Origin: an uncultured Dokdonia sp.
Lineage (GTDB): Bacteria > Bacteroidota > Bacteroidia > Flavobacteriales > Flavobacteriaceae
Length of the DNA: 64,000 bases
Direction: 5' to 3'
Assembly (NCBI RefSeq): GCF_947492535.1
Contig: NZ_CANLNH010000004.1
Coordinates: 62,001 to 126,000 of the forward strand
Position numbers and translations under genes: made by a program. Under the pieces are notes generated by a model that was given only the letters and a program-made list of their open reading frames with translations, searched no databases and was not told the origin of the DNA. Position 1 is the stretch's first letter; every line of letters begins with the position of its first letter. Shown here piece after piece: positions 1,049-61,369 of this stretch.

Positions 1049-2152
1049 GTGAGCACATACCATCCAAACCAATCTTACGCACAGGTGCGTTTGCCTTCAG
1101 AAGACCTAACAGCTGATATGGATTTTTTTATCCAACTCGGATTTCGCTTAGATAAAATCTTCCCAGCAGACAATCCTGCGGTAGCGATGCTTTCTGGATT
1201 TGGAATGCATATGGTATTAGATAAAAGAGTCGTGAGCCCGCCTGCGGTTATCAATATAATTACAGATTATCCAGAAACCATTGCACAAGGAAAAACAGAA
1301 CTCACAGCACCCAACGGTGCTGTGATTCATATCTTACCTAGAACCCAAACGCTAGTAACCCCAAGTACAAAACATCATTTTGAAGTACGCAAACTTACGG
1401 AAGGCGAATCTTGGGTGATTGGTCGTGCTGGAATGTTATATCGCGACCTTATCCCCGATCGATTGGGTGGTAGTATTATCGCCTCTCATATTAGAATCCC
1501 TAATGGCGGTCCGGTACCCGATATGGTACATTATCATACCATTGGATTTCAATTAATATTCTGTAAAAGCGGATGGGTGAAATTGGTATATGAAGACCAA
1601 GGTCCTCCATTTATTTTACACGCAGGCGATTGTGTCACCCAACCTCCAGAAATACGGCATCGTGTATTGGAAGCTTCAGATAATCTAGAAGTGATTGAGA
1701 TAGGAGTTCCCGCCGAGCATATGACAACCATTGACCACGAATTAGAACTCCCAACAAAGACCTATAATCCTGATAGGCTTTTTCAGGGGCAACGTTTTTG
1801 TCATCATCAATTAAAAGATGCCGTTTGGGACGATTGGCGTTTATCGGGTTTCCGCTTTCGCGAAAGCGGAATTAAAGAAGCAACCCAAGGAGATGCTTCT
1901 GTACAGGTAATACAGGCCGTTCAGGCATTACGAGAAACACCACCTGTAAGTCATACCACAGATATTCTATTTAGCTTTATCCTATCTGGATCGATGACAT
2001 TAGAAGCAGAAAATCAAGAAACGCAATCACTTACTCAAGGTGACGCTTTTGTCATCCCTCCGGAGATGAAATATTGCTTTAAAAACATCTCTGAAGATTT
2101 AGAACTGCTGGAAGTAGCACTGCCAGGAAATTTCGAGACTACACTATATTAA
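1049..2152 (+). CDS. VOC (glyoxalase-like) plus tandem cupin protein
   Basis: A 367-residue cytosolic protein with a GTG start. Residues about 10-60 resemble half of a vicinal-oxygen-chelate fold (PSEDLTADMDFFIQLGF). A first cupin follows around 155-230 (HYHTIGFQLIFCKSGWVKL ... HAGDCVTQPPEIRHRV), with histidines placed like cupin metal ligands. A second cupin is at about 300-365 (GDAFVIPPEMKY). Such bicupins often bind a metal and act on small carbonyl or phenolic compounds; the substrate is unknown. The 20-bp palindrome TCCGCTTTCGCGAAAGCGGA sits in the coding sequence at 1851-1870 and encodes FRFRESG between the two cupins. Confidence 0.65.
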   Translation: MSTYHPNQSYAQVRLPSEDLTADMDFFIQLGFRLDKIFPADNPAVAMLSGFGMHMVLDKRVVSPPAVINIITDYPETIAQGKTELTAPNGAVIHILPRTQTLVTPSTKHHFEVRKLTEGESWVIGRAGMLYRDLIPDRLGGSIIASHIRIPNGGPVPDMVHYHTIGFQLIFCKSGWVKLVYEDQGPPFILHAGDCVTQPPEIRHRVLEASDNLEVIEIGVPAEHMTTIDHELELPTKTYNPDRLFQGQRFCHHQLKDAVWDDWRLSGFRFRESGIKEATQGDASVQVIQAVQALRETPPVSHTTDILFSFILSGSMTLEAENQETQSLTQGDAFVIPPEMKYCFKNISEDLELLEVALPGNFETTLY

Positions 2153-2240
2153 AATAGTTTTCTTTGAAAATTTAATGATAGTAAAAAAGACTCTTTATCC
2201 TTTAAACGGATTTCTTACCTTTAGGTCTTAAAAATTAATT

Positions 2241-3959
2241 ATGAAATATAGTTTTCTTGTTTGTATGGCTTTGCTATCGTACTCTTTGTATGCGCAAAAC
2301 CTGATGATTAATAATGCTACAATTATAGATGTGCACACTGGAGAATTAGTAGAAAAACAACAGTTGCTTATCGAAAATGGGGTGATTACTAAAATCAGTA
2401 AAAAAGCCTTAAAAAATAAAAATAAGTATCAGGTCATTGATGTAAATGGTAAATACTTAATGCCAGGAATGATAGATACTCATATTCATTTTTTCCAAAC
2501 AGGAAGTTTATACACACGTCCCGATGCAATTGATCTAACCAGTGTCGTTTCGTATGAAGAAGAGCTTGCATTTGCAGAAGAACTCGTTAATGATAGTTTT
2601 AAACGTTACTTGCGCTTAGGAATCACTACCGTAATGGATGTAGGTGGACCTTTTTCTAATTTTAAAGTTCGCGATACTATTGCTGCAGAGAATACATCTC
2701 CTAATGTATATGTTACAGGACCATTATTTTCTCCGTATCAACCAGAAGCGCTTGCAAAAACAGCTGATGTGCCCATCGCAAAAATCACTTCGATAGAAGA
2801 TGCAACAGCACTATTCAATAAAATGTTACCCTATAAACCAGATTTTATTAAAATCTGGTACATTGCTAGCCCAGAAATACCCGCAGAGAAGACCTACCCT
2901 ATTGTAAAACATATTGCTCAACTAGCCCATGATAATAGTCTTAAGCTTGCAGTGCATGCAACTCAGCTCAACACAGCAATATTAGCAGTAAAAGCAGGAG
3001 CAGATATTCTTGTACATAGTGTTGATGATAAAGAAGTCACAGAAGAATTTGCCCAATTACTTAAAGAGAATAATGTTACCTATGTACCTACATTAATTGT
3101 CTCAAAAAATTACTTTACTTCTTTTACAGGAACACCGAGTAATCATGCGCAAGATTTAAATTTTGCCAACCCTAAAACATATCGTTCTCTTACAGACGTA
3201 CAACGTTATACTAAAGAAACAATGCCAGCTGTTTTAAAACGTTTTCAAGGGAATACAGATGGTTTTCTAAAGTATTATGATGCAAATACAGTTCTTATGA
3301 ATAAGAATCTCAAATTCTTACAAGAGCAAGGAGTTAATATTGCTACAGGCACTGATGCAGGGAATATAGGTACGATGCATGCTTCTTCTTATCTACAAGA
3401 AATTGAGGCCATGGAAAAAGGAGGGCTCACTAGTTTACAATTATTAAAAGCAGCTACTATAAATGCGGCGCGTGGTTTCGGTTTAGAAAACATATTAGGT
3501 AGTATTAAAGAAGGGAAAGTAGCAGATATCATTATACTTGATGAAAACCCAATAACAGATATTCAGAACCTTACTACAATAGAATCAGTTATTAAAGATG
3601 GAGCAATTTTAAAAGTTTCTGATATTATAAAAGAAACACCAGAGCAAATTGTACAACGTCAAGTCAATGCATATAACGCAAGAGATATAGACGCTTTCAT
3701 AGCAACCTATGCAGATGATGTTGAGTTCTTTAATTTTCCTAATGAACCTGGATCAAAAGGAAAAGAGGCTTTACGAAATCAATTTAATGCTATGTTTAAG
3801 CGTGTTCCAAACCTTTATTGTGAGATCAAGAAACGTATCGTTATCGGAAATAAGGTGATAGACAGAGAACATGTACGTTTTGGAGATCAATACTCTGATG
3901 TTGTTGCTATCTATGAAATAGAAAATGGTAAAATTTCAAAAGTTACTTTTTTGGAATAA
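2241..3959 (+). CDS. Secreted amidohydrolase with C-terminal SnoaL/NTF2-like domain
   Basis: A signal peptide (MKYSFLVCMALLSYSLYAQ) is followed by an amidohydrolase (imidazolonepropionase/prolidase-like) domain. The metal motif DTHIH gives H81 and H83. Further likely ligands are H239 in HATQ and D372 in GTDAGN. The amidohydrolase C-terminal strand (GKVADIIILDENPI) ends near residue 450. An NTF2/SnoaL-like domain fills about 460-572 (NAYNARDIDAFIATYADDVEFF). The domain pairing suggests a periplasmic hydrolase of cyclic amides or dipeptides. The substrate is not visible. A TACCTTTA element about 20 bp upstream resembles a flavobacterial -7 box. Confidence 0.85.
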   Translation: MKYSFLVCMALLSYSLYAQNLMINNATIIDVHTGELVEKQQLLIENGVITKISKKALKNKNKYQVIDVNGKYLMPGMIDTHIHFFQTGSLYTRPDAIDLTSVVSYEEELAFAEELVNDSFKRYLRLGITTVMDVGGPFSNFKVRDTIAAENTSPNVYVTGPLFSPYQPEALAKTADVPIAKITSIEDATALFNKMLPYKPDFIKIWYIASPEIPAEKTYPIVKHIAQLAHDNSLKLAVHATQLNTAILAVKAGADILVHSVDDKEVTEEFAQLLKENNVTYVPTLIVSKNYFTSFTGTPSNHAQDLNFANPKTYRSLTDVQRYTKETMPAVLKRFQGNTDGFLKYYDANTVLMNKNLKFLQEQGVNIATGTDAGNIGTMHASSYLQEIEAMEKGGLTSLQLLKAATINAARGFGLENILGSIKEGKVADIIILDENPITDIQNLTTIESVIKDGAILKVSDIIKETPEQIVQRQVNAYNARDIDAFIATYADDVEFFNFPNEPGSKGKEALRNQFNAMFKRVPNLYCEIKKRIVIGNKVIDREHVRFGDQYSDVVAIYEIENGKISKVTFLE

Positions 3960-5000: not shown

Positions 5001-6725
5001 ATGAACGTACAAACCTGGACATATATACTTGTAGGCGTCACGTTTGCCATTTATATAGGCATTGCGATATGGTCTCGCGCAGGATCTACCAAAGAGTTTT
5101 ATGTTGCTGGAGGCGGTGTATCTCCATGGGCAAATGGAATGGCCACTGCTGCCGATTGGATGAGTGCTGCTTCGTTTATTTCGATGGCAGGGATTATCTC
5201 TTTTGGAGGGTATGACGGTTCTGTATATCTCATGGGATGGACAGGAGGCTATGTACTTCTGGCATTATTATTAGCACCTTATCTCCGGAAGTTTGGAAAG
5301 TTTACCGTCCCTGATTTTATAGGCGATCGTTATTATTCAAAAACAGCTAGAGTCGTAGCTGTACTGTGCGCGTTACTTGTCTCGTTTACCTATGTTGCCG
5401 GGCAAATGCGTGGTGTAGGATTGGTATTTTCTAGATTTCTAGAAGTAGATATTAATACAGGCGTTATTATCGGAATGGCAATTGTACTGTTTTATGCGGT
5501 ACTCGGTGGCATGAAAGGGATTACCTATACGCAGGTAGCACAATACTGCGTATTGATTTTTGCGTTTATGGTACCTGCTATTTTTATCTCTATTCAAATG
5601 ACAGGAAACCCAATTCCACAAGTAGGGATGGGTGGCACAGTAGAAGATGGCACCTATCTTTTAGATAAACTCAACGGACTCTCACAAGACTTAGGATTTG
5701 CACAATATACCAATGGATCTAAATCAAAAGTAGATGTATTTATGATCACTTTGGCATTAATGGTAGGAACTGCTGGATTACCACATGTGATTGTCAGGTT
5801 TTTTACGGTAAAGCGTGTGAAAGATGCCCGTAAATCGGCAGGAATTGCCTTGTTGCTGATTGCTATTTTATATACCACAGCACCAGCTGTTGCGGTATTT
5901 GCAAGGACTAATATGATTACTACTGTAAGTGATCAACCGTATTCAGAAATGCCAGAATGGTTTACCAAATGGGAAGAAACAGGACTCATTACGTTTGAAG
6001 ATAAAAATGGCGATGGAAAAGTGCAGTATACCGCTTTCGCGAAAGCAGAAAATGGACAACCTGCAAATGAACTTACAGTCGATAGAGATATCATGGTATT
6101 AGCAAACCCTGAGATTGCCAACCTTCCTGCATGGGTGATTGCCCTTGTAGCCGCCGGCGGACTCGCAGCTGCATTGTCTACAGCAGCAGGATTATTACTT
6201 GTAATCTCATCTTCAGTATCGCATGACTTGGTAAAGAAAACATTTAAACCAGATTTAACAGATAAGCAAGAACTATGGATTGCACGCGGTGCTGCAACAG
6301 TTGCTGTTGTCATTGCAGGTTATTTTGGAATTGATCCACCAGGATTTGTTGCTGCTGTTGTTGCGCTTGCTTTTGGACTAGCTGCTGCCTCTTTCTTTCC
6401 TGCTATTGTGTTAGGGATTTTCTATAAAAAAATGAATAAAGAAGGCGCTGTTGCTGGAATGATTGTCGGTATTACCCTCATGATTTTTTATATGCTGAAG
6501 TTTAAGTTTGGTGTTTTTGACGGAGGAAAAACTGCAGTAGCGGGACTTCAAAAAGAGTGGTGGTTTGGGATTTCACCAGAAGGATTTGGAAGTATTGCTA
6601 TGATTGTTAATTTTATAGTAGCCCTTATTGTAAATCGTTTTACACCAGATCCACCAGAAGAAGTTCAAGAAATTGTAGAAACCATTAGAATTCCAAGTGG
6701 TGCTGGAGAAGCAAGTAGTCATTAG
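5001..6725 (+). CDS. Sodium:solute symporter (SSS family, VC2705-like), probable acetate/carboxylate uptake
   Basis: A 574-residue inner-membrane protein with about 13 transmembrane segments. The SSS signature is clear: FYVAGGGVSPWANGMATAADWMSAASF early on, then FTVPDFIGDRYYS. This subgroup pairs with DUF4212, encoded just upstream. Acetyl-CoA synthetase lies downstream at 9478, which supports acetate or another short carboxylate as the substrate. A polar insert at about residues 312-370 carries an acidic DKNGDGK stretch. That loop also contains the palindrome core GCTTTCGCGAAAGC (6033-6046), read as AFAKA. Confidence 0.88.
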   Translation: MNVQTWTYILVGVTFAIYIGIAIWSRAGSTKEFYVAGGGVSPWANGMATAADWMSAASFISMAGIISFGGYDGSVYLMGWTGGYVLLALLLAPYLRKFGKFTVPDFIGDRYYSKTARVVAVLCALLVSFTYVAGQMRGVGLVFSRFLEVDINTGVIIGMAIVLFYAVLGGMKGITYTQVAQYCVLIFAFMVPAIFISIQMTGNPIPQVGMGGTVEDGTYLLDKLNGLSQDLGFAQYTNGSKSKVDVFMITLALMVGTAGLPHVIVRFFTVKRVKDARKSAGIALLLIAILYTTAPAVAVFARTNMITTVSDQPYSEMPEWFTKWEETGLITFEDKNGDGKVQYTAFAKAENGQPANELTVDRDIMVLANPEIANLPAWVIALVAAGGLAAALSTAAGLLLVISSSVSHDLVKKTFKPDLTDKQELWIARGAATVAVVIAGYFGIDPPGFVAAVVALAFGLAAASFFPAIVLGIFYKKMNKEGAVAGMIVGITLMIFYMLKFKFGVFDGGKTAVAGLQKEWWFGISPEGFGSIAMIVNFIVALIVNRFTPDPPEEVQEIVETIRIPSGAGEASSH

Positions 6726-6833
6726 TACGCTTTATCGCTTTGCTCTCCCTTTGGTTATGAATGGCGCAAGTTTGGTTTTCGCTCCTGCCTGCTGACAGGC
6801 TGGTCTCGCAAGTTCAATTTCGCGAAAGCGTAT
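6726..6833. repeat. Long-form palindrome-bounded repeat (copy L1)
   Basis: This 108-bp intergenic element starts TACGCTTT and ends CGCGAAAGCGTA, the two halves of the short palindrome found elsewhere. Its interior shares CTCTCC-CT-TGGT and TCGCAAGTTC-ATTTCGCGAAAGCGTATA with the copy at 42869-42955 and, in inverted orientation, with 38500-38615. An inner CCTGCCTGCTGACAGG hairpin is present. It lies between the converging symporter and kinase genes. No ORF is seen in it. Confidence 0.75.
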
Positions 6834-9477: not shown

Positions 9478-11385
9478 ATGAATTTATACCATATCCAAAA
9501 TCTCGAACATTATTTTCAAGTATATCGCCATTCTGTAGATCAGCCAGAGCAATTTTGGGAACAAATTGCTAAAAAGAATTTTGTTTGGCAAAAACCATGG
9601 AATACTGTTTTAAACTGGAATTCAGATACCGCAGAAGTTCGCTGGTTTGAAGGAGCACAACTCAATATTACAGAAAACTGTATAGACAGGCATTTAGAAA
9701 CTCGCGGAGATAAAACGGCTATTCTTTTTGAACCGAATAATCCTAAGGATCCTGCAGAACATATTACCTATAAAGAACTCCATACCCGCGTATGTAAATT
9801 TGCCAATGTATTAAAAGATAAAGGCATCAAAAAAGGAGATCGTATCTGTATTTATTTACCGATGATTCCTGAGCTCGCTATTGCAGTTTTAGCCTGCGCA
9901 CGTATTGGTGCGATACATTCGGTGGTATTTGCAGGGTTTTCGGCAACTGCACTCTCAACCCGTATTAATGATGCCAAGTGTAGCATGGTAATTACCAGTG
10001 ATGGCTCTTTTCGCGGAAGCAAAACCATAGACCTTAAAGGCATTGTAGATGAAGCCCTAGAAGAGACTCCTACTATAGAAAACGTGCTTGTTGTCAAAAG
10101 AATTCACTCAGACATCATGATAAAAGAAGGACGAGATCATTGGGTACAACCTTTAGTAGATGCAGCATCTGCTCACTGTCCTATTGAACTCATGGATGCA
10201 GAAGACCCTTTATTTATTTTGTATACATCAGGATCTACTGGAAAACCCAAAGGAATGGTACATACCACTGCAGGATATATGGTTTATAGCGCATATACAT
10301 TTAAGAATGTGTTCCAGTATGAAGAAGAAGATATCTATTGGTGTACGGCTGATATAGGATGGATTACTGGGCATAGTTATATTGTATACGGACCCTTAGC
10401 AAATGGTGCAACAACCGTGATGTATGAAGGCGTACCTTCCTATCCTGATTGGGGACGATTTTGGGAGATTGTTCAAAAGCATAAGATCACCCAATTTTAT
10501 ACGGCACCCACAGCGATACGCGCATTGGCCAAAGAGAATTTAGAATTTGTCGAAATATATAACCTCACTTCTCTGAAAGTTTTAGGTACCGTAGGCGAAC
10601 CAATTAACGAAGAAGCATGGCATTGGTATAATGATAACATCGGGAAGAAGCGAAGTCCCATTGTAGATACATGGTGGCAAACCGAAACGGGCGGTATTAT
10701 GATTAGTCCTATTCCATTTGCAACACCTACTATTCCTACATTTGCAACCTTGCCATTACCCGGTATTCAACCCGCATTGATGGATGAACATGGAAAGGAG
10801 ATAGAAGGCAACCAGGTCGACGGCCGTCTTTGTGTCAAATTTCCATGGCCATCCATGGCGCGAACTATTTGGGGAAATCACCAACGCTATATAGATACGT
10901 ATTTTTCCGCTTTCGCGAAAAAGTACTTCACCGGTGATGGCGCTTTTAGAGATGCCACAGGATATTACCGCATCACAGGTCGTGTAGACGATGTCATTAT
11001 TGTGTCAGGACATAATCTAGGAACTGCACCCATCGAAGATGCGATCAATGAACATCCCGCTGTCGCCGAAAGTGCCATTGTAGGCTTTCCACATGATATT
11101 AAAGGAAATGCACTATACGGATATGTGATTCTAAAAGAAACCGGCGAAACTAGAAATCACGACAATCTTCGTAAAGAAATCAATCAGGTCATTACTGAAA
11201 AAATAGGACCTATCGCTAAGCTTGATAAAATTCAATTTACCATAGGACTCCCTAAAACTCGCTCAGGAAAAATCATGCGTCGTATTCTTCGTAAAATTGC
11301 TCACGGCGAAAGCGATCAGCTAGGGGATATCAGCACATTACTCAACCCTGAAGTGGTGGAAGCGGTGATACAGGAAGCATTGTAA
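9478..11385 (+). CDS. acs: Acetyl-CoA synthetase (AMP-forming)
   Basis: A 635-residue cytosolic enzyme converting acetate, ATP and CoA to acetyl-CoA. Full-length family features: N-terminal ACAS_N region (YRHSVDQPEQFWEQIAKK), P-loop YTSGSTGKPKGMVHT, WWQTETGG, the hinge region YRITGRVDDVIIVSGHNLGTAPIE, and K598 in TRSGKIMRRILR, the lysine acetylated in many ACS enzymes. The palindrome core at 10908-10920 is read as SAFAKK. It replaces the usual FSTFPGK before YFTGDG without changing the length. A hairpin with a T-run after the stop is a likely terminator. Confidence 0.96.
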   Translation: MNLYHIQNLEHYFQVYRHSVDQPEQFWEQIAKKNFVWQKPWNTVLNWNSDTAEVRWFEGAQLNITENCIDRHLETRGDKTAILFEPNNPKDPAEHITYKELHTRVCKFANVLKDKGIKKGDRICIYLPMIPELAIAVLACARIGAIHSVVFAGFSATALSTRINDAKCSMVITSDGSFRGSKTIDLKGIVDEALEETPTIENVLVVKRIHSDIMIKEGRDHWVQPLVDAASAHCPIELMDAEDPLFILYTSGSTGKPKGMVHTTAGYMVYSAYTFKNVFQYEEEDIYWCTADIGWITGHSYIVYGPLANGATTVMYEGVPSYPDWGRFWEIVQKHKITQFYTAPTAIRALAKENLEFVEIYNLTSLKVLGTVGEPINEEAWHWYNDNIGKKRSPIVDTWWQTETGGIMISPIPFATPTIPTFATLPLPGIQPALMDEHGKEIEGNQVDGRLCVKFPWPSMARTIWGNHQRYIDTYFSAFAKKYFTGDGAFRDATGYYRITGRVDDVIIVSGHNLGTAPIEDAINEHPAVAESAIVGFPHDIKGNALYGYVILKETGETRNHDNLRKEINQVITEKIGPIAKLDKIQFTIGLPKTRSGKIMRRILRKIAHGESDQLGDISTLLNPEVVEAVIQEAL

Positions 11386-11451: not shown

Positions 11452-11639
11452 GGTGATTTCGCTTTCGCGAAATGGTGACGAATGTATCTTATTATTCGTC
11501 TATAAGTACTATTGTCACACATAGCCTATCGAAGTGCTCGATTTTAAAACTAAAATGTATGGATTTCCCCTCTATGAAGAGGGGAGTAAGGGGTGTGTGA
11601 TCTATTCATGTAATAAAATCTCATTCTTATCTCTAAATC

Positions 11640-20159: not shown

Positions 20160-20260
20160 CACCTAATTAATATAGTTTATTTCCTCTCCCTCAGGGAGAG
20201 GATGAAGGTGAGGGGTGATTCCTTTTTTGTTTTAAAAGTATACGCTTTCGCGAAAGTATA
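20160..20260. repeat. Hairpin repeat CCTCTCCCTCAGGGAGAGG and a short palindrome
   Basis: CCTCTCCCTCAGGGAGAGG at about 20181-20199 is followed by AAGGTGAGGGG, the same class as at 18131 and 18479. Palindrome TACGCTTTCGCGAAAGTATA follows at 20241-20260, matching the dispersed 20-bp motif at most positions. Both lie between the CarboxypepD_reg protein and the protease. Confidence 0.65.
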
Positions 20261-21512: not shown

Positions 21513-21616
21513 CAATTAATTTTCTCTCTCACTGGTAGAAGGTGAAGGGGAGAGATTTATTTTTGACACCTCAATTCCTGTTGTAAAAATAGGTTGAGGT
21601 GGCTGAATAATTTTTT

Positions 21617-21631
21617 GCTTTCGCGAAAACG
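21617..21631. repeat. Short palindrome core (GCTTTCGCGAAAAC)
   Basis: Intergenic copy of the dispersed palindrome, with the right arm ending AACGTA instead of AGCGTA. Confidence 0.7.
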
Positions 21632-21700
21632 TATTATACCTGTATTTCGATATAATCTAATTAGCGTATCATTCAATGTCTTATCATTGTTACTATCAAA

Positions 21701-24117: not shown

Positions 24118-27100
24118 ATGCGTAACATCCATGTTTTTCTCACCGCAGTACTAAGTCTTTTTTTGATCACTTGTGATAAAAAAGGTGCTGATCAACCCAC
24201 TGATAACCTATTCAAATACAAAGAGTATATATCGTATGCTACGAGTGGTAGGCAATCTATAGCAAATCCAATTAATGTAAAGGTAGCAAAGGCATTAACG
24301 CAGTTTGAATTGGATCAAGAAATTCCTTCAGATGTTTTTGAGATTATTCCTAAAACATCAGGAAAATTGAGAGTTTCTGGACAACGTACGTTAACTTTTA
24401 TACCCGATGAGCATCTTACTCCTGATACAGAGTATTCGGTAACATTACTTTTAGACAAGCTCTATGATGATCTCCCAAAAGAGATGCGTGCATATACCTT
24501 TAATTTTAAAACCATTACACCAGATTTTAAAGTAGATCTTCGAGCGCTTCAGTCGTATGATAGAAGTTATCAGTATTTAGAAGGTCAGATAGAGGGTGCT
24601 GATGTGATCGCTTTCGCGAAAGCAAAACAACTTATAAACGCAACTCAAAATGGAAAACCATTATCCATAACGTGGTTAAGTGATAAAAAAGCAGCTCGAT
24701 ATCACGTATTTAAAATAGATAGTATTCTCAGAGAAGAAGAAGATGCAAAGATTCAAGTCTCATGGAGTGGAAAATCGATTGGTGCTGATGAGACAGAAGG
24801 TGATAATGAAGTGCTGATTCCTGGACGTAATAATTTTAAAATTGTAAATATTAATCAGACGTTAGGGGCAAATGCTTCGGTAGCGCTTAATTTTTCGGAT
24901 CCTTTACAAGAAAATCAAAACTTTAAAGGATTAGTGGCGATACAACGCGCAGGTGACTTACGCTTTGAAGTAGATGGAAATGTACTTCACGTATATCCTG
25001 AAAACAAGATTGTAGGAAAATCACTCGTCGAAGTTTTTCAAGGAATTAAAAGTACCGATGGCTATAAATTAAAAATACCTTTTTCAGAAACCGTTTCTTT
25101 TGAGCAATTAAAACCTGGCATACGTGCCATCACAAATGGGGTGATCTTACCAAATTCAGGTAGCAATCCGTTCTATTTTGAATCGGTTAATTTAAGCCAT
25201 GTTGATGTGCGTATTATTAAGATATTTGAGAATAACGTACTAGAATATTTACAAGAAAATAATTTGAGTAGCAACAATTCTTACGGATTAAAACAAGTAG
25301 GAAGACGTGTTGCCAAACAAACGATCAACTTGCAAGAAAATAGTTTTCAGTCGGGAGATATCAGTGATAGTCAGTGGCGTGTACATGGAATAGATTTATC
25401 TAACATGTTTCAGGCAGACCCAGGCGCTTTATATCGTGTAGAAATAAGTTATAAGCAAAGCTATGTGGCGTATGAATGTGTAGATGATGATGCACAGGTA
25501 GAGGAAGATACCTATGACGATTATTATTACGAAGATGAATATTATGAAGGTGATTATGTAGAAGCCGAGAGTGCTGATGAAGATGAACGCGAAGAGCAAT
25601 ATTGGGATAATCGAATCTATCGTTGGCGAGATCAAGTATATAATTGGAGACAAGAAGACAATCCTTGTCATCCAGCATACTACCAAGACAGTAAATTTAT
25701 AAGCAGTAATATTTTAGGCTCTGACCTTGGACTGATCGTTAAAAAAGGAAAAGACAATAGCTATCACTTTGCTGCGACAGATATTGTGTCTACCACACCA
25801 GAAGCCAATACAAAAATTACCTTATATAATTATCAAAAACAACCCATAGGAACCGTAACGACAGATGCTTCAGGTCTTGCAACAGTAACTCCCGACGGAT
25901 ATGCGGTATTTGCAGTCGCTCAAAAAGGAGCAAACTACGCCTATCTTAAAATAGAAGATGGGAATGCACTTTCTATGAGTAAGTTTGACATCTCAGGAAA
26001 GCAATTACAAAAAGGATTAAAAGGATTTATTTATGCAGAGCGCGGAGTGCATCGTCCAGGCGATAGTATTCACCTTTCGTTTGTCCTTAATGATGCTAAC
26101 AATCCATTACCTAAAGACCATCCTGTAAAATTAGAAGTCACTGATGCGAGAGGAAAACTCACCTATCGTAAAGTATTAAGTACAAATACAACTTCACAAA
26201 ACGGAACTGGAAAGGCGGTAAATAATGTGTATTATTTTCCTGTTACCACTACGCCCACAGCGCCTACAGGAAATTGGAATGCAACGATTAGTGTGGGAGG
26301 TGCTAGCTTCTCGAAGACATTAAAAGTTGAAACGATAAAACCCAACCGCTTAAAAGTCAATTTAGCCTTTGAAAATGAGATTATAAGTGCTAGTGATAAT
26401 ATAGAAGGGAGTGTAAAAGTAGCATGGTTACATGGAGCTCCTGCACGAAATCTAAAAATAAAAACAGACGCTACGATACGAAGTTCTAATAGCGGATTTA
26501 AAACCTATCCTAACTATAATTTCTTTGATCCTATTCGCAGTTTTGATCAGTTTGATTTGACCATATTGGATGGACAATTAAATGAAGAAGGAGTTACACA
26601 AATTAATAAAGAATTAGATTTAGGAAAACGCGCGCCTGGAATGCTTAAAGCCACGTTTGTGACGAAAGCTTATGAAGGTGGAGGGGATTTTTCATTAGAT
26701 GTGGTGAGTAAAGATATCGCACCCTTTGATCATTTTGTAGGATTACAATCCCCTAAAGGTCGTGCCTATGGAAGTTATTTTACAGATGACAATACAGAGT
26801 TTGATGTTGTGACTACAGATGCACAAGGAAAAGCATCAGGAAACAGAACCTTAGAAGTCAAAGTCTTTAAAATGAGTTGGCGATGGTGGTGGAGCCGTGG
26901 GAGAGATAACTATTCTCGATATGAAACCGGAACTATTCATACACCTGTAAAAGATTTCAAAGTAACTACGGGTGGTAATGGAAAGACGAGTTTTACCGTC
27001 AATATTCCAGAAAGAGAAAGTGGTCGTTACTTAATACGAGTAATCGATCCAGAAAGCGGACATGCAACGGGTCGTATAGCCTATTTCTATCGTAATTGGA

Positions 27101-30658: not shown

Positions 30659-33025
30659 GTGAAAATCACAAAACAACATATCATCACAAAACTTAAAAAG
30701 CATAAAATCAAGCTTTCGATTTTTTTGTTGGTGTTTGTGTATTGGTTGTTTTGCTTGCCTACAACACTATTTAAAGAAACGACATCTACAGTAGTTGAAA
30801 GCCATACAGGAGAATTATTGGGAGCCCGTATCGCTGATGATGGGCAATGGCGATTTCCAGCATTAGATAGTGTACCGTATCGTTTTGAGCAATGTGTGCT
30901 GCTTTTTGAAGATGAGTACTTCTACAAACATCCTGGATTTAATCCAGTAGCCATGGGAAAAGCATTGTATGGTAATATCATGACTGATAAGCGACGTGGA
31001 GGGAGTACGATTACACAGCAAGTGATTCGGCTTTCTAGGAAAAACACAAAACGTACCTATGCAGAAAAATTGATAGAACTTCTAAAGGCAACACGTTTAG
31101 AAACACGATATTCTAAAGATGAGATTCTTAATTTATATGCTACGTATGCTCCTTTTGGCGGAAATGTCGTAGGGCTAGAAACAGCATCTTGGCGTTATTA
31201 CGGACTTCCTGCTCATCAATTAAGTTGGGGGCAAAGTGCAGCATTAGCGGTCTTACCTAATCATCCAGCGATGGTTAGGCCTGGGAAAAATGAGGGTACG
31301 CTTTCGCGAAAGCGGAATCAACTTTTAAAGAAGTTATGGGAGAATGAGATTATTGATGAAGCTACGTATCAACTTTCTATTTTAGAAGAACTCCCTGGAA
31401 AACCCTATCCATTACCTCAAATAGCATCACATCTTACAGAGCGTATACGAAAAGAATATAAAGGAAAACGTATTAAAAGCACAGTTCATAGTGATGTGCA
31501 ATTGCAATTGAATCGTTTGGCGAAGGAACATCATTTGCAATTACAGCAAAATGAGATTTATAACCTTGCGATTGTTGTGATGGATGTGCAAACAAAAGAA
31601 GTGATTGGGTATGTGGGCAATGCGCCTACTTCAGCGTTGCATCATAAAGATGTTGATATTGTTACACGTCCTAGAAGTACAGGGAGTGTATTAAAACCTT
31701 TGTTATATGCAGGAATGTTGGATGCAGGTACCATTTTACCAGAAAGTTTAGTGGTTGATATTCCAACCTATATTAATGGCTATCAACCACAAAATTTTGA
31801 TAAAGAGTTTCAGGGTATAGTTCCGGCGAGTAGCGCTTTGGCAAGATCTCTTAATGTACCAGCTGTTCGAATGTTGCAGAAATATGGGTTGGATAAATTT
31901 TATGGCGATTTACAAGATATGGAAGTGGCACATATTGATAAATCAGCAAATTATTATGGATTGTCACTTATTTTAGGAGGCGCTGAAAGTAGTTTATGGG
32001 AAGTGACCAAAACCTATGCTGGATTAGCGCATACCTTAAACACATACACGAATTCTTCTAGTGAGTATAGTCATACTGCTTTTCAGGAGTATTCATATAC
32101 CTCTAAGAATCCTGAGATAGCGACTCAACTTCTTTCGGATCCGCCTGTTTATGATGCTGGAGCAATTTATAATACTTTAGAAACCTTACGAAATGTAAAT
32201 AGACCTACTGGGGAAGAAAACTGGCAATTTTATGAAGATGCACAGCCTATTGCATGGAAAACAGGAACGAGTTATGGCTTTAAAGATGCTTGGGCAGTAG
32301 GAGTGACTCCTCAATATGCAATTGGTGTTTGGGTAGGAAATGCTGATGGAGAAGGAAGACCTGGTATTACAGGAATGCAAGCAGCGGCTCCTTTGTTTTT
32401 TGATGTATTACGTGAACTACCTAATGATGGAAGTTGGTTTGCTACACCTTATGATGCCCTTACAGAAATTAAAGTTTGTTCAGATACTGGTGATGCAGCA
32501 AGTATTTATTGTCAAAACACAAAAATGATCTTAGCTCCAGAAGCGGGAATTCATAGTGAAGCCTGCTCATATCACAAACAAATCTATGTAACTACTTCTG
32601 GGAATTACCGTGTCAATTCAGCGTGTTATGAATTGGATCAAATGAAATCTGAAATACGATTTGTGGTGTCCCCAGCTGTAGCATACTATTATGCAAATAA
32701 ACATCCTGACTATAAAGAATTACCGCCACTGCATCCTGATTGTACTATTTTAGGAGAGCAACCCATGTCTTTTATATATCCAAAGAAAAATGAAGATGTT
32801 ATACTGCCTAAGGACTTTGATGGTAAACGTAATGATCTTATTCTTAAACTGGCACATCGTAATCCAGATACGAAAGTATTTTGGTACCTTAACGATACAT
32901 TTATAGGAGATACAGAAACATTTCATGAACTTGCTGTTTTGCCTGTAGAAGGAGACTATATGATCACTGTGGTGGATGCAGATGGGAATCAATTAAAACA
33001 ACAAATAAAAATATCAAAATTTTAA
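30659..33025 (+). CDS. pbpC: Penicillin-binding protein 1C (glycosyltransferase/transpeptidase)
   Basis: 788 residues with a GTG start. One N-terminal membrane anchor (LSIFLLVFVYWLFCL) precedes a GT51 glycosyltransferase with the catalytic E84 in LLFEDEYFYKHPG. The transpeptidase domain has S343 and K346 in GSVLKP, and K534-T535-G536 (KTGTSYGFKDAW). The C-terminal BiPBP_C-like domain (about 700-788, LAVLPVEGDYMITVVDADG) is typical of PBP1C. It would build peptidoglycan strands at sites guarded by the A2M lipoprotein upstream. A palindrome core at 31299-31314 is read as LSRKR. Confidence 0.94.
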   Translation: MKITKQHIITKLKKHKIKLSIFLLVFVYWLFCLPTTLFKETTSTVVESHTGELLGARIADDGQWRFPALDSVPYRFEQCVLLFEDEYFYKHPGFNPVAMGKALYGNIMTDKRRGGSTITQQVIRLSRKNTKRTYAEKLIELLKATRLETRYSKDEILNLYATYAPFGGNVVGLETASWRYYGLPAHQLSWGQSAALAVLPNHPAMVRPGKNEGTLSRKRNQLLKKLWENEIIDEATYQLSILEELPGKPYPLPQIASHLTERIRKEYKGKRIKSTVHSDVQLQLNRLAKEHHLQLQQNEIYNLAIVVMDVQTKEVIGYVGNAPTSALHHKDVDIVTRPRSTGSVLKPLLYAGMLDAGTILPESLVVDIPTYINGYQPQNFDKEFQGIVPASSALARSLNVPAVRMLQKYGLDKFYGDLQDMEVAHIDKSANYYGLSLILGGAESSLWEVTKTYAGLAHTLNTYTNSSSEYSHTAFQEYSYTSKNPEIATQLLSDPPVYDAGAIYNTLETLRNVNRPTGEENWQFYEDAQPIAWKTGTSYGFKDAWAVGVTPQYAIGVWVGNADGEGRPGITGMQAAAPLFFDVLRELPNDGSWFATPYDALTEIKVCSDTGDAASIYCQNTKMILAPEAGIHSEACSYHKQIYVTTSGNYRVNSACYELDQMKSEIRFVVSPAVAYYYANKHPDYKELPPLHPDCTILGEQPMSFIYPKKNEDVILPKDFDGKRNDLILKLAHRNPDTKVFWYLNDTFIGDTETFHELAVLPVEGDYMITVVDADGNQLKQQIKISKF

Positions 33026-35103: not shown

Positions 35104-36024
35104 TTATTTTTCATTCCAAGTATTAAAAGGGTGCATACTAATATAAGAATTGTAATATTTTTTATCAGCCGTCACTTCTTTTCCAATCCATGCGGGTTTT
35201 GTAAACGATTCATTTTCATTAGAGAGTTCTATTTCGGCAAGTAGTAATCCAGCATTATCCCCATAAAATTCGTCTATTTCCCAAGTATGTTGATTTATGG
35301 AGACTTCATATCGAGTTTTGTCTATGATTCCGGGAAGGCAAAGTTTGAGTAATGTTTCCGCTTTCGCGAAAGCGATCTCTTCCTCAACCTCAATACGTGT
35401 CGTACCTGTTTCGTTTGACTTTCCTTTTATGGTGAGATATCCTTTCTCTCCCTTAATACGAACACGTACGGTACGCTCAGGATCAGTGCTGAGGTATCCT
35501 TGTTTGATACGGGTTTGGGTATGTGCTTCTTTTTTGAAAGCGTCTAAAGTCACTAAAAATTTACGTTCGATTTCTAAAGAGTTGCTTTCATTCCTGCGAA
35601 GGCGGGAATCTTCCATAGTTTCAACCTTATCTTCCTCTATTCTCCATGGTGGATTTTTTCGATTGTCACCTGCATAAAATAAGATGAGTTGATTCCCATC
35701 TGGGTCTTTCAATCTAGCCTCTCTCCATAACCACGGTTGATCAGTAGGAAGAAGATCAAAAGTTGTTGTGTTTCCATGTAGCTGGAGTCCTTCTAATTCT
35801 TTTACTTTTTTATCCACATTTTCTACTTCAAAGTAGACGATTACCCCTTCGCCTAAAGCTACTTTTTCTACTTTATGAATAGAAAAAGTACTCTCTCCAT
35901 TAGGGCATTCAAAACGTGCATATTGTTCTGGCACATGTACGATAAGGTGAAGCCCTATTTTTTTATAAAAAGCTACAGACGTTTCTACAGCTACCGAAGG
36001 GATAGTGACTTGATTAAGGTTCAT
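35104..36024 (-). CDS. Fusion of a VOC (glyoxalase-like) domain and a CYTH domain
   Basis: 306 residues. Residues 1-about 130 are a full VOC protein ending in the usual YAGDNRKNPPWRI. Residues about 150-306 are a full CYTH domain starting LEIERKFLV and continuing with RIKQGYL, VRVRIKGEKGYLTIKG, WEIDEFYG and AEIELS. CYTH proteins bind triphosphates or act as inorganic triphosphatases. The junction (about 139-146, DSRLRRNE) is coded by an ATTCCTGCGAAGGCGGGAAT repeat at 35589-35610, so the fusion appears repeat-made. It overlaps the next gene by 11 bp. A palindrome core (35359-35374) reads as AFAKA in the CYTH part. Confidence 0.82.
   Translation of the reverse strand: MNLNQVTIPSVAVETSVAFYKKIGLHLIVHVPEQYARFECPNGESTFSIHKVEKVALGEGVIVYFEVENVDKKVKELEGLQLHGNTTTFDLLPTDQPWLWREARLKDPDGNQLILFYAGDNRKNPPWRIEEDKVETMEDSRLRRNESNSLEIERKFLVTLDAFKKEAHTQTRIKQGYLSTDPERTVRVRIKGEKGYLTIKGKSNETGTTRIEVEEEIAFAKAETLLKLCLPGIIDKTRYEVSINQHTWEIDEFYGDNAGLLLAEIELSNENESFTKPAWIGKEVTADKKYYNSYISMHPFNTWNEK
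35589..35610. repeat. CCCGCGAAGGCGGGAAT-type hairpin inside a gene
   Basis: CATTCCTGCGAAGGCGGGAA then TC. Same class as the intergenic hairpins at 17281-17301 and 783-822. It occupies the domain boundary of the VOC-CYTH gene. Confidence 0.75.
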
Positions 36025-39962: not shown

Positions 39963-39986
39963 TATACGCTTTCGCGAAAGCGTATA
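39963..39986. repeat. Perfect 24-bp copy of the dispersed palindrome
   Basis: TATA, CGCTTTCGCGAAAGCG, TATA: all 24 bp symmetric. It is the longest perfect copy seen and lies between hmgA and the next gene of the operon, so it would be transcribed as a strong stem. Confidence 0.9.
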
Positions 39987-42868: not shown

Positions 42869-42955
42869 TACGCTTTACCGTTTTACTCTCCCTCTGGTCG
42901 TGAACCTGCCTGTCTGCCCGCAGGTTTCGCAAGTTCGATTTCGCGAAAGCGTATA
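42869..42955. repeat. Long-form palindrome-bounded repeat (copy L2)
   Basis: About 87 bp starting TACGCTTTACCG and ending TTTCGCGAAAGCGTATA. Shared interior: CTCTCCCTCTGGTCGTGAAC, then CCTGCCTGTCTGCCCGCAGG (itself a hairpin), then TCGCAAGTTCGATTTCGCG. Compare 6726-6833 and 38500-38615. Confidence 0.75.
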
Positions 42956-45387: not shown

Positions 45388-45409
45388 ATACGCTTTCGCG
45401 AAAGCGTAT
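45388..45409. repeat. Perfect 22-bp copy of the dispersed palindrome
   Basis: AT, ACGCTTTCGCGAAAGCGT, AT: 22 bp symmetric, between the converging ends of the lipoprotein promoter side and the LytTR gene end. Intergenic. Confidence 0.9.
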
Positions 45410-49436: not shown

Positions 49437-50375
49437 ATGAAGAAAAAAATCGAACCAGATATTGAGCGTATTATAGACGCTCTTGATGATAAATATGAAA
49501 AAATAGATCAAGATCTTGACGATCATCTGGAAGGATTATTACAAAGTAAACCCATTACTTATTGGGATTACATACATACAGACGCCTTATTAAATCTCCA
49601 ATTACCACGTACAAATTTTCCTGATGAGAATGTATTTATCATGTATCATCAACTCACAGAGATTTTATTTAAGATGGTATTATGGGAAATCGAACAGATA
49701 GCACATCATAAAAACCTAACAGCAACATTTTTTGCATCGCGTTTAGATCGCATAAGCCGCTATTTTGATATGCTTACCTCGTCTTTTAGCATTATGAAAG
49801 ACGGTATGGATCTAGATCAATATATGAAATTCAGGAAAACATTAACGCCAGCTAGTGGATTTCAAAGCGCTCAATATAGAAAGATAGAATTTGCGAGTAC
49901 AGATTTAATTAATTTAATAGATGCGCGCTTTCGCGAAACCATAGATAGAAACACTCCCTATGAACATGCGTTAGAACACTTGTATTGGCAGGCAGCTGGA
50001 AAGAATTACCAAACAGGAAAAAAGAGTTATTTACTATATGCTTTTGAAGAAAAATATAAAAATGAGTTTATCGCATTCACAAAAGAATATAATACTATAA
50101 ATTTGTACGCTAAATTCAAGTCCCTACCAGAAGCAGATCAAAATGATCCAGCCTTGCGAAAAGCAATGCGACATTATGATTATACAGTGAACGTTACTTG
50201 GGTGATGTCACACTACCATACAGCAAACCATTATTTAAATAATGGGAAGGAAGTAGTAGAAGCAACAGGAGGGAGTGAATGGACAAAATATATGCACCCT
50301 AAATATCAGCGTAGAATATTCTTTCCAGATGTTTGGACAACCGAAGAATTAGCAAACTGGGGGCAAGATGTATAA
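49437..50375 (+). CDS. kynA: Tryptophan 2,3-dioxygenase
   Basis: 312 residues. Haem enzyme that opens the indole ring to N-formylkynurenine. Family landmarks: FPDENVFIMYHQLTEILFKMVLWEIEQI, LTPASGFQSAQYRKIE, EHLYWQAAG, and the terminal SHYHTANHYL ... TGGSEWTKYMHPKYQRR. It starts 10 bp after DUF3108, and 19 bp before the M23 gene. A palindrome core is read here as ARFRET at 49927-49939. Later kynurenine-pathway genes are not in the window. Confidence 0.93.
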   Translation: MKKKIEPDIERIIDALDDKYEKIDQDLDDHLEGLLQSKPITYWDYIHTDALLNLQLPRTNFPDENVFIMYHQLTEILFKMVLWEIEQIAHHKNLTATFFASRLDRISRYFDMLTSSFSIMKDGMDLDQYMKFRKTLTPASGFQSAQYRKIEFASTDLINLIDARFRETIDRNTPYEHALEHLYWQAAGKNYQTGKKSYLLYAFEEKYKNEFIAFTKEYNTINLYAKFKSLPEADQNDPALRKAMRHYDYTVNVTWVMSHYHTANHYLNNGKEVVEATGGSEWTKYMHPKYQRRIFFPDVWTTEELANWGQDV

Positions 50376-51705: not shown

Positions 51706-53319
51706 ATGAAAAATAGCAACCCAACTCAAACAAATGCGTGGAAGAAATTACAAGCGCATTTTGAAACCATAAAGGATACACATCTTACGTCGCTTTTTAA
51801 AGATACTAATAGAGCAGCTACATTTACAATACAATGGCAGGATTTTCTTGTAGATTATAGTAAAAATAGAATCACAGAAGAGACAAAAGAGCTTTTAGTA
51901 GAACTTGCAGAAGAAGTAGGGCTTGCTGAGGCTATTACAAGCTATTTTGGAGGAGAAGCCATTAATGCGACAGAAGATCGTGCTGTAATGCATACAGCGT
52001 TGAGAGATTTTTCAGGTACTGCTTTTCAAAAAGAAGAAGTTGCACAAGTACGTTCTTCTATAGAAACATTTACTAAAAGCATTATAGAAGGCACTCACAA
52101 AGGCGCTACTGGAAAAACAATTACCGATGTTGTAAATATAGGAATTGGAGGATCAGACTTAGGTCCAGTGATGATTGTAGAGGCTTTACAATATTATAAA
52201 AATCACCTCACTACGCATTTTATCTCAAATGTAGATGGAGATCATGTGATGGAAACCATTAAAGACCTTGATCCAGAAACAACACTTTTTGTTATTGTGT
52301 CTAAAACATTTACAACCCAAGAGACATTAAGTAATGCTACGACAGTACGTACGTGGTTTGTAGATAGATTAGGAGAAGAAGCTGTAGAACGTCACTTTGT
52401 AGCGGTGTCTACAAACTTAGAAGCTGTTCAGAATTTTGGAATTGCTTCACAGAATATTTTTCCCATGTGGAATTGGGTGGGAGGCCGTTTCTCTTTATGG
52501 AGTTCGGTAGGACTTTCTATTGCTCTTGCAGTGGGATATGATCATTTTGAAGCACTGCTTAAAGGAGCTCATGAGATGGATGTTCATTTTAAAGAACAGC
52601 CTTTCGGCGAAAATATTCCAGTGATTACAGCATTGTTAAGCGTTTGGTATAACAACTTCTTTGGAGCCGAAAGCGAAGCTGTCATTCCCTACACACAATA
52701 CTTACACAGATTGCCAGCGTATTTACAACAAGCTATTATGGAAAGTAATGGTAAAAGTGTAGATCGTAATGGAACTCCTGTTTCTTATGAAACTGGAAAT
52801 ATTATTTGGGGCGAACCAGGTACCAATTCTCAACATGCATTCTTTCAATTAATTCATCAAGGAACCAAATTAATTCCAGCAGATTTTATTGGATTTAAGA
52901 AAAGCTTACACGGAAATACAGATCACCATGATAAATTAATGGCCAATTTCTTTGCGCAAACAGAGGCATTAATGAATGGTAAAACTGAAGCACAAGTACT
53001 ATCGGAATTTGAGGGAAGTACGCTTTCGCGAAAGCGTATAGAGCAACTAACCCCTTTCAAAATTTTTGAAGGTAATAAACCTACCACTACGTATCTTATA
53101 GATGCGCTTTCTCCAAAGACTTTAGGAGCATTAATCGCTATGTATGAACATAAAATTTTTGTGCAAGGAGTTATTTGGAACATCTATAGTTATGACCAAT
53201 GGGGTGTAGAGCTTGGTAAACAGCTTGCTAAACAAGTGCTTAGCGATTTTGAAGATGTAAAAACATCAAATCATGATGCTTCAACAAAGCAATTAATGAT
53301 TTCTTATAAAAATGCATAA
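51706..53319 (+). CDS. pgi: Glucose-6-phosphate isomerase
   Basis: 537 residues. Converts glucose-6-phosphate to fructose-6-phosphate in glycolysis. Landmarks: [78 protein letters not shown], and the C-terminal [14 protein letters not shown]. Length normal. Gap from M23 is 21 bp, so co-transcription is likely. A perfect palindrome copy at 53019-53038 lies in frame, encoding TLSRKR between conserved blocks. Confidence 0.97.
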
Positions 53320-59706: not shown

Positions 59707-59720
59707 GCTTTAAAATGCCC

Positions 59721-60191: not shown

Positions 60192-60214
60192 AAGATAGAA
60201 AACACGATATATAG

Positions 60215-60246: not shown

Positions 60247-60251
60247 AGTTT

Positions 60252-60303
60252 TTGGTATATGCTTTTGCGATCCTGCCTATAGGTAGGCAAGAGCTTGTAA
60301 AAT
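60252..60303. repeat. Degenerate long-form repeat fragment
   Basis: TATATGCTTTTGCGATCCTG, then CCTATAGGTAGG hairpin, then GCAAGAGCTTGTAAAA. Resembles the arms of 6726-6833 and 42869-42955 with many changes. Confidence 0.4.
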
Positions 60304-60310
60304 GCCCTGC

Positions 60311-61369
60311 TTATTTTGTAGCGACTTCTTTAATTAAGATAATATACACTGGGAAATGATCACTATATCCTCCTGTGTATCCACCATTAGCAAAACTACG
60401 ATACGGATAGCCTTTGTAACGTCCTTTAGGGTTGCTTAAGTAGTTTTTGTTATAAATACCTGCTTTAAAATACCTATAAGAACTATAGTCTTTACGAAGC
60501 AGTGGCTCTGTAACTAAAATTTGATCAAAAAGATTCCATCCATCTCGATACGCTAAGGTGCCTATTCCTTTTTTGAACATAGGTTCCATAGGATTGTAAA
60601 TCATCTTATCTTTTACCTTCTCTTTATTTCCTTGCGCTTTCAATACTTTCTTTACACTAGGACTTGTAGGGTCATCATTAAGATCTCCCATCGTAATGAT
60701 CTTTGCGTATGGGTCATTACTCTGTAAGCTATCGATAAGTTTTTTATTAAGTGCGGCAGCAGCCATACGTTTTTTGCGACTACGTGCTTCTCCTCCAGAA
60801 CGTGACGGCCAGTGATTTACAATAATATGAATCATATCACCGTCTAATAATCCAGATACTAATAATTGATCACGTGTAAATCTTCGTTTTGTAGGATCTT
60901 CATTATCGTAAATAATAAGTTCGTGTTTACTAATGTTTTTAGGTGTAAACAGTGCTTTTTGATACATAAGCGCTACGTCAATCCCTCTTCGGTCTGGAGA
61001 ATCAAAATGAGCAATCCCATAATCTTTCTCTAGCAATTGTGGGTCATTAGCGAGGTCTTCTATGGTTTTTCTATTTTCTATTTCAGCAAGCCCAATAATG
61101 GCAGGTGAATTCTTAGTGATATCCATTCCAATTTCTGAAATAACGCGTGCCATTTTCTGGACTTTATCTGCATAAATAGCTTCGGTCCAATGGTCTTTTC
61201 CGTTGGGAGTTCGGTCGTCATCAAAGGTGATCGGGTCGTTTTCTGTATCAAACAGGTTTTCAACGTTGTAGAATGCAATGGTGTGTGGTTTGTATGTTTT
61301 TTGATCTTGCGCTTTCGCGAAAGCGAACGATACTATAAAAACAATAAATAGATACTTTTTTAAGTACAT
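60311..61369 (-). CDS. Secreted endonuclease/exonuclease/phosphatase-family protein
   Basis: 352 residues from ATG at 61369 (MYLKKYLFIVFIVSFAFAKA, signal peptide). An upstream ATG at 61420 would give an unlikely leader. EEP fold: IAFYNVENLFDTENDP, IIGLAEIENRKTIEDL, IIVNHWPSRSGGEARS, ITMGDLNDDPTSP, and the final YSDHFPVYI. Such proteins hydrolyse nucleic acids or phosphoesters outside the cell. The end of the signal peptide (AFAKA) is coded by a palindrome core at 61310-61325. Confidence 0.88.
   Translation of the reverse strand: MYLKKYLFIVFIVSFAFAKAQDQKTYKPHTIAFYNVENLFDTENDPITFDDDRTPNGKDHWTEAIYADKVQKMARVISEIGMDITKNSPAIIGLAEIENRKTIEDLANDPQLLEKDYGIAHFDSPDRRGIDVALMYQKALFTPKNISKHELIIYDNEDPTKRRFTRDQLLVSGLLDGDMIHIIVNHWPSRSGGEARSRKKRMAAAALNKKLIDSLQSNDPYAKIITMGDLNDDPTSPSVKKVLKAQGNKEKVKDKMIYNPMEPMFKKGIGTLAYRDGWNLFDQILVTEPLLRKDYSSYRYFKAGIYNKNYLSNPKGRYKGYPYRSFANGGYTGGYSDHFPVYIILIKEVATK

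Follow-up and report, generated by a model that had tools for sequence, protein, structure and literature searches.

INTRODUCTION

The parS and Noc-binding sites are perfect palindromes with TTTC and GAAA ends that occur in a few to some tens of copies per genome, and Chi, the site associated with RecBCD and AddAB, is asymmetric and is read from one strand. The highly iterated palindrome HIP1 (GCGATCGC) of cyanobacteria occurs in thousands of copies, both genic and intergenic; it propagates by substitution and is held by selection, and a role in chromosome structure or maintenance has been suggested for it (PMC6604393). The DNA uptake sequences (DUS) of Neisseriaceae and uptake signal sequences (USS) of Pasteurellaceae are non-palindromic words present in about 1000–2000 evenly spaced copies, with an intergenic excess and with genic copies as well, and Chi itself is found about once per few kb, with 1008 copies in Escherichia coli (PMC1939737). 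In this report, we describe a palindrome, TTTCGCGAAA, that recurs throughout the genomes of the marine genus Dokdonia (Flavobacteriaceae); the starting point was a 64,000-nucleotide stretch of an uncultured Dokdonia sp. (contig NZ_CANLNH010000004.1, positions 62,001 to 126,000), referred to below as the window.

HIP1 is the system that TTTCGCGAAA most resembles: both are high-frequency palindromes within and between genes, both appear to spread by substitution, and one of the functions proposed for HIP1 is also the one we favour here. The core of TTTCGCGAAA differs from GCGATCGC, its footprint is longer, it belongs to another phylum and it has no link to a C5 methylase; the short-range exclusion between sites and the carriage by phages described below are observations on TTTCGCGAAA. 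TTTCGCGAAA shares with DUS and USS its copy number, even spacing, intergenic excess and genic copies, and differs from them in being palindromic, in having fewer one-mismatch forms than most of the cases tabulated in PMC1939737 and in being rich in only three of 199 sampled genera; the Neisseria DUS, moreover, have a known receptor. With Chi it shares a density of one site per few kb, and a Chi-like role would explain both the need for coverage and the adoption by phages; unlike Chi, only the whole palindrome is strongly enriched, and no RecC accompanies it. The parS and Noc sites, with which it shares perfect symmetry and TTTC and GAAA ends, are far fewer, and no extra ParB paralog tracks it.

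RESULTS

Abundance within and beyond the genus

An earlier note, made from the letters of the window alone, had read the core palindrome 16 times, assumed a G+C content of about 35% and expected fewer than one copy. All 16 copies are present as exact TTTCGCGAAA, with core starts 0–7 bases from where that note had placed them; the G+C content is 34.8%, and dinucleotide-preserving shuffles of the window gave a mean of 0.12 copies and a maximum of 3, none of 100 reaching 16. The longer form proposed for the palindrome, TACGCTTTCGCGAAAGCGTA, is exact in three copies (cores at 39970, 45394 and 53024; contexts read by eye), and the remaining 13 depart from it. As had also been noted, copies of both kinds occur, nine genic and seven intergenic by our own open reading frame (ORF) calls.

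The palindrome is neither near its expected count nor confined to the window, the two outcomes against which the earlier note had set its claim. The genome to which the window belongs (4.86 Mb) holds 1094 copies, against 21 of a reversed control word, and all 18 genomes of the genus, this one included, hold 481–1195 (controls 9–23). In a survey of the family with one genome per genus (199 genomes, sampled from a larger group), the only rich genomes were that of the window, G010 (595 copies) and G190 (559), and the next-highest counts were 34, 27, 26 and 23. Across the phylum (395 genomes, surveyed with the 12-mer GCTTTCGCGAAA), the window's genome was the only rich one, with 944 forward and 965 reverse matches, followed by one with 17 and 14. 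Among the best 80 named phosphoglucose isomerase (PGI) loci of Bacteroidota (1.50 Mb), a set that excludes near relatives of the window, 79 had no palindrome and one had three. The motif-rich genera are not a single clade in a PGI tree, where G190 groups, with weak support (88/58), with G144 (34 copies), and G010, on a long branch, joins G007 (6 copies). No work on this palindrome was found among the open PubMed Central (PMC) papers listed; the exact 10-mer occurs in 10 papers, all off-topic by title.

Two side observations came from the PGI loci. The three-copy locus (L279) derives from the metagenome-assembled genome (MAG) of Cytophagaceae bacterium SAT51 (G627). With 187 copies in 5.0 Mb (control 15), this genome is the fourth to be enriched, moderately so, and perhaps represents an early or fading state of the system. 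Two other records, L261 (CALPIE020000102.1, labelled as a Bifidobacterium breve MAG) and L271 (VHBC01000004.1, a Sphingomonadales MAG), look mislabelled or contaminated because their PGI is 64–65% identical to that of Dokdonia.

An exact duplex site

Across eight Dokdonia genomes (320 kb), the consensus of the site is T(A)CGC-TTTCGCGAAA-GCG(T)A. Next to a perfect core, the successive arm positions are C in 96%, G in 95% and C in 86% of cases, and by our own arithmetic the counts of sites with both, one or no full arm fit independence; looped arms are rare. A sample of 1.42 Mb contains 448 perfect cores, of which 342 have GC arms; in the same DNA each of 15 symmetric palindromic variants with GC arms has zero occurrences, as have the spacer variants N0, N1, N3 and N4 (arms 0, 1, 3 and 4 bases apart). 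Half-sites outside full cores generally occur at 0.9–1.8 times expectation (CGCGAAAGC, 13 versus 9.6; GCGAAAGCG, 21 versus 12.0), and TTCGCGAA was seen 8 times versus 3.2. Given the absence of symmetric variants and the near-background level of half-sites, it is the whole duplex sequence that is recognised, not merely a hairpin and not a single strand.

The exactness of the site is also evident in its mismatch spectrum. In 1.38 Mb we counted 435 exact cores, 92 with one mismatch and 454 with two, where 1.2, 40 and 598 were expected; these figures amount to a 372-fold excess, a 2.3-fold excess and a deficit. For comparison, PMC1939737 gives 438 exact and 947 one-mismatch copies of an Actinobacillus pleuropneumoniae uptake sequence and 5648 and 1830 of a HIP1 10-mer; its relative excesses are 183 and 2.0 for Haemophilus influenzae (the latter RepSeq value corresponding to 3.0-fold) and 392 and 4.8 for Neisseria gonorrhoeae. 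The fall-off of TTTCGCGAAA is the steepest of the tabulated cases, with the H. influenzae sequence close to it, and its one-mismatch excess per exact copy is 0.12 against 0.30 for the HIP1 10-mer, although the null models differ, our expectations being third-order and those of PMC1939737 based on base composition. C to T at CpG is the core change seen most often in near-miss sites of G202 (Dokdonia 4H-3-7-5), G215, G201 and some phages, and CGCTTTTGCG occurs outside cores in G202 8 times versus 2.0 expected. This excess would fit deamination; in G190, C to T at CpG is not the commonest change.

Even spacing and tolerant placement

The earlier note had called the spacing irregular; the gaps are in fact more even than random. 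In the window their coefficient of variation (CV) is 0.60 versus 0.91 (P = 0.03), and for the 160 sites of a contiguous 480-kb stretch of G202 it is 0.60 versus a null of 1.05, a value reached in none of 3000 trials; gaps below 1 kb number 13 versus about 50 expected and gaps of 2–4 kb 80 versus 37. The G202 null preserves the numbers of coding and intergenic sites, and all other spacing nulls, including that for the window, are uniform placements; the G202 stretch contains 5,000 N bases, which produce one false gap of 8.3 kb. The same tendency was found in G000 (CV 0.68 versus 0.99; gaps below 700 bp, 3 versus 14.6), more mildly in the first 333 kb of G199 (0.83 versus 0.99, P = 0.03; 4 versus 18.6), and in G190 (0.67, 100 sites) and G010 (0.46, 25 sites), each unmatched in 10,000 random placements. 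At a larger scale, 26 stretches sampled along the G202 chromosome hold 3–10 sites per 20 kb, and no origin-to-terminus gradient or other trend was seen among them. G215 is sparser (148 sites per Mb in 480 kb), and several of its single orthologous sites are degenerate without gaps; a general loss of the system there was considered and rejected, near-misses being about as rare as elsewhere (59 exact and 7 one-mismatch sites with good arms). As a side observation, the longest site-free gaps, 12.2 kb in G202 (C1, about 1.573–1.585 Mb) and 19.0 kb in G199 (C1, about 0.970–0.989 Mb), are due to a giant tandem-repeat gene, with open frames of 3015 and 4344 codons and a repeat step of about 330–350 bp in the BLAST ladder.

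Of 159 sites in 520 kb of G202, 91 fall in coding DNA, at a density of 0.2 per kb, compared with about 1.3 in tandem and convergent intergenic DNA and 0.6 in divergent intergenic DNA. Genic Dokdonia sites mainly encode AFAKA, LSRKR or RFRES and are more frequent in the opening tenth of the gene (20 of 91 in G202 and 14 of 66 in other Dokdonia stretches; 2 of 27 in G190), a region in which we read AFAKAQ as similar to a signal-peptidase site. Between genes, the copies cluster just past stop codons: a distance of 30 bp or less was found for 47% of the 138 stops that flank them, versus 8% of the 118 starts. No T-run follows these copies (mean 2.6 T in 10).

Conservation, gain and loss of sites

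We compared G202 (1.40–1.88 Mb) with G199 (0.82–1.22 Mb), which are collinear in large blocks at 79% identity. Alignable sites were letter-perfect in 83 of 95 cases in one direction and 87 of 98 in the other, against 11.2 and 11.8 expected from flank identity; 65 of 160 and 32 of 130 sites were set aside for poorly aligned flanks, and the two directions share sites. By location, 63 of 69 coding sites (8.1 expected) and 20 of 26 intergenic sites (3.1 expected) were perfect, and control palindromic 10-mers were perfect in 53 of 343 cases, with 45.7 expected. Around the site, identity climbs from about 0.75 to 0.97 across 14–16 bp and then drops back. This pattern points to purifying selection that keeps the palindrome letter-perfect. 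In a separate set of directed comparisons, in which the same sites are counted many times, 294 of 396 were perfect.

Sites that were not conserved more often had a neighbour of their own within 1.5 kb (12 of 23, versus 35 of 170 conserved sites; Fisher P = 0.003, the cases not being independent because both directions share sites). Sixteen of the 23 align gap-free and seven involve gaps; one of the 23 is a misalignment, with the site of the other genome at distance 0. The PGI gene illustrates gap-free replacement. It holds at least one site in all 14 Dokdonia genomes given (of 18), at codon 439 in nine and at codon 106 in seven, two having both; within the genus the alignment at codon 439 is gapless, and site-free members have, for example, GGLSPEAIEEL there. 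In G190 the site is found at yet another codon, 308. The gene thus remains covered while the location shifts by about 1 kb. New sites arise mainly by substitution. This also speaks against the remains of a mobile palindrome, one of the roles offered in the earlier note: the codon-439 site of PGI changes codons at constant length, and most non-conserved sites are gap-free.

Copies in phages

A scan of IMG/VR with the 16-mer returned 41 stretches in 30 records, of which 22 carry at least two copies of the 10-mer and eight a single copy; these records were found through the motif, so that copy numbers are biased upward, and they include several fragments of the same phage. Viral contigs were also scanned with the 14-mer, and most additional records among the matches listed had one copy in the returned stretch. 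Eleven of the records form five groups by more than 6 kb of shared DNA. Some proteins of G597, G598, G603 and G608 were scanned, and all four records encode portal, head, terminase, tape-measure or baseplate proteins; G598 and G603 carry integrases and G608 a Mu-type transposase, and the checked phages look temperate from these genes. Phage gaps are over-regular (32 gaps in eight records that partly share DNA; CV 0.57 versus 0.86, P = 0.001).

Sites are partly conserved between these phages. G598 and G606 (76–91% identity) keep five of five aligned sites in each direction. From G597 to G618 (about 67%), three of four are kept and four are not alignable, and from G608 to G618, which differ in G+C content, two of three are kept and two are not alignable. 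Conservation is weaker from G597 to G608 (one of three), from G598 to G619 (one of two) and from G601 to G619 (one of two, at 95.5%). Two named phages have no site: Winogradskyella phage Peternella_1, annotated as transposable, with a terminase that shares 54.5% identity with the G597 protein, and Cellulophaga phage phi39:1, with a portal that shares 35% identity with the G598 protein. The motif-bearing phages thus seem to experience the same pressure as the chromosome, their hosts being assigned from motif and G+C content alone. As a side observation, G597, G608 and G618 form a group with 17–20 kb in common and a G+C fraction of 0.38–0.45 that is related to Peternella_1; this group may be useful for tracing how a phage gains the site on a change of host.

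Candidate protein families

Four families were examined as possible partners of the palindrome. The C5 methylase domain (PF00145) was rejected as a cause: it occurs in 11 of 28 genomes, but G190 and 7 of the 12 Dokdonia genomes given, all of them motif-rich, lack it. An extra ParB/Noc paralog (PF02195) was likewise rejected, with 1–2 ParB_N genes in motif-rich and 1–3 in motif-poor genomes (29 genomes). RecC (PF04257) was found in none of 28 genomes. A PDDEXK_1 nuclease domain is present in 23 of 23 genomes, motif-rich or not, with two matches in 20; in 19 of these 20, the two matches are separated by about 5 kb and fall in frames of about 900 and 1050 codons, interpreted here as AddB and AddA. 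The motif-rich G010 has a single match.

DISCUSSION

The reading that we favour, tentatively and with somewhat less than even confidence, is that TTTCGCGAAA is a HIP1-like iterated palindrome bound by a putative dimeric protein every 3–5 kb of resident DNA, probably for chromosome upkeep. The core with its footprint of about 16 bp, CGCTTTCGCGAAAGCG, would be the exact duplex binding site of this protein, and selection would retain one site within reach of every few kb of long-resident DNA, whether chromosome or prophage. New sites would arise chiefly by point substitutions at tolerant positions, such as loose protein segments, the ends of signal peptides and the DNA just past stop codons, and loss would be easier where another site lies no more than about 1.5 kb away. 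The bound protein would most likely serve compaction, loop or domain organisation, or repair. An exact duplex, redundancy at about 1.5 kb, the requirement for sites at intervals of a few kb in both chromosome and prophage, and abundance in few genera are together best accommodated by a lineage-specific dimeric binder with an upkeep role. Among the four roles offered in the earlier note, a possible part in chromosome organisation fits best.

Several observations weigh against chromosome upkeep. The checked phages look temperate, so that upkeep of the chromosome and protection of incoming DNA are not separated by them. Even spacing has also been published for DNA uptake sequences (PMC1939737), and the mismatch fall-off of TTTCGCGAAA is near that of the H. 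influenzae uptake sequence. In G190, where 27 of 32 sites fall in coding DNA, intergenic DNA is not clearly preferred and exactness is weaker: of the cores with good arms, 21 are exact and 7 have one mismatch. Finally, none of C5 methylase, ParB, RecC and PDDEXK_1 tracks the motif, and no binding protein was found among them.

A DNA uptake sequence, in which a transformation receptor would bind the palindrome and sites would spread through biased uptake and recombination, is possible though unlikely in our view. Copy number, even spacing, the intergenic excess of Dokdonia and placement at tolerant codons all recall uptake sequences as described in PMC1939737, and Riemerella, placed in the same family by PMC7965970, is naturally competent, R. 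columbina favouring its own DNA. The exact and one-mismatch enrichments, 372-fold and 2.3-fold, are near the values for H. influenzae (a relative excess of 183 for exact copies, and 3.0-fold for one mismatch), which weakens any argument against uptake from mismatches; other uptake sequences, such as those of N. gonorrhoeae and A. pleuropneumoniae, are richer in one-mismatch forms, and TTTCGCGAAA has its deficit at two mismatches. Against uptake, the known sequences covered in PMC1939737 are non-palindromic whereas TTTCGCGAAA is a perfect palindrome, the top repeats that PMC7965970 gives for three flavobacteria are all A/T-rich words, and phages retain part of their sites across large divergence, which uptake drive alone explains poorly. 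The uptake-like role suggested in the earlier note thus keeps the support of spacing and intergenic preference, and is opposed by the symmetry of the word and its retention in phages.

A bolder reading, which we consider doubtful, treats the palindrome as a licence for resident DNA: a lineage-specific dimeric protein would have to be bound every 3–5 kb, failing which the DNA would be lost through degradation, mis-segregation or lack of repair, and selection would have written one 16-bp word all over the genome and into the temperate phages it hosts, without a methylation mark.

A Chi-like self-mark is a further, rather improbable explanation, in which the site or a protein bound to it would halt a helicase-nuclease such as AddAB, so that resident DNA and prophages would need regular sites. 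The spacing of 3–5 kb and the redundancy suit a limit on degradation, phages carrying sites would gain, and the paired PDDEXK_1 frames are widespread; the same genes, however, occur in motif-free genomes, motif-rich G010 has one PDDEXK_1 match, and RecC is missing. Half-sites are scarcely enriched, which is unlike a one-strand reading, and the temperate look of the checked phages also speaks against a self-mark.

The site of an orphan methyltransferase seems improbable. Methylase recognition sites are usually shorter than an exact footprint of 16 bp, and the C5 form of the methylation-linked role raised in the earlier note is out, the domain being missing from so many motif-rich genomes. C to T at CpG is the commonest near-miss change in G202, G215 and G201, though not in G190, and would suit methylation, and such a role has been suggested for HIP1, which contains the sites of two orphan methylases (PMC4390886, PMC6604393). 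A transcription terminator or operator is very improbable: the crowding of intergenic copies near stop codons would suit a terminator, but over half of the copies in Dokdonia lie within genes, no T-run follows and even spacing is a misfit, in agreement with the earlier note, which had thought a simple gene-regulatory operator unlikely. The remains of a mobile palindrome, either a repetitive extragenic palindrome (REP) with its RAYT transposase or another small insertion element, can practically be dismissed, for although the word is palindromic, dispersed and numerous, and gaps occur at seven of 23 non-conserved sites and at two intergenic copies that differ between close species (see below), more than half of the sites are genic, unlike the extragenic REP/RAYT elements, and neither the gap-free sites nor the equal-length codon swaps of PGI bear the mark of spread by insertion.

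The role of HIP1 has been open since 1995, and the Dokdonia palindrome is an independent case, which would be a new and sharper example if the reading of chromosome upkeep is true. Its signals are strong: exactness, exclusion at the kilobase scale, 87% of alignable sites letter-perfect at 79% identity, and copies in phages. Dokdonia are culturable marine bacteria with published genomes (4H-3-7-5, PRO95 and Dokd-P16). Naming the putative binding protein could make the whole HIP1-type class testable and would show how a genome, its proteins included, can be rewritten by one DNA-binding protein.

Copies in the window and an inter-arm stretch

The positions of the 16 copies are collected in Table 1.

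Table 1. Copies of the palindrome in the 64-kb window (positions count from the first letter of the window)
Copy	20-mer	Core	Context
1	1851..1870	1856-1865	within cupin-domain ORF 1049-2152
2	6030..6049	6035-6044	within sodium:solute symporter ORF 5001-6725
3	6813..6832	6818-6827	intergenic, flanking ORFs convergent
4	10906..10925	10911-10920	within acetyl-CoA synthetase-type ORF 9478-11385
5	11458..11477	11463-11472	intergenic, ~75 bp past stop codon
6	20241..20260	20246-20255	intergenic
7	21614..21633	21619-21628	intergenic, flanking ORFs convergent
8	24607..24626	24612-24621	within 1868-aa ORF 24118-29724
9	31297..31316	31302-31311	within transglycosylase/transpeptidase ORF 30659-33025
10	35357..35376	35362-35371	within CYTH-domain ORF 35104-36024 (-)
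11	39965..39984	39970-39979	intergenic, full 20-mer
12	42934..42953	42939-42948	intergenic
13	45389..45408	45394-45403	intergenic, full 20-mer
14	49924..49943	49929-49938	within tryptophan-dioxygenase-type ORF 49437-50375
15	53019..53038	53024-53033	full 20-mer, codon 439 of phosphoglucose isomerase ORF 51706-53319
16	61308..61327	61313-61322	within Exo_endo_phos ORF 60311-61420 (-)

Between close species, intergenic palindromes can differ by a stretch of 34–43 bp between the arms. At the place in G200 that aligns with copy 11 (L046/L047/L054/L055), the CTTTC and GAAAG arms are separated by 36 bp, and the reverse case was seen at another intergenic site. The stretch contains words like GAAGTT...GTCGAAGT and may be a small element of intergenic DNA that exploits the palindrome.

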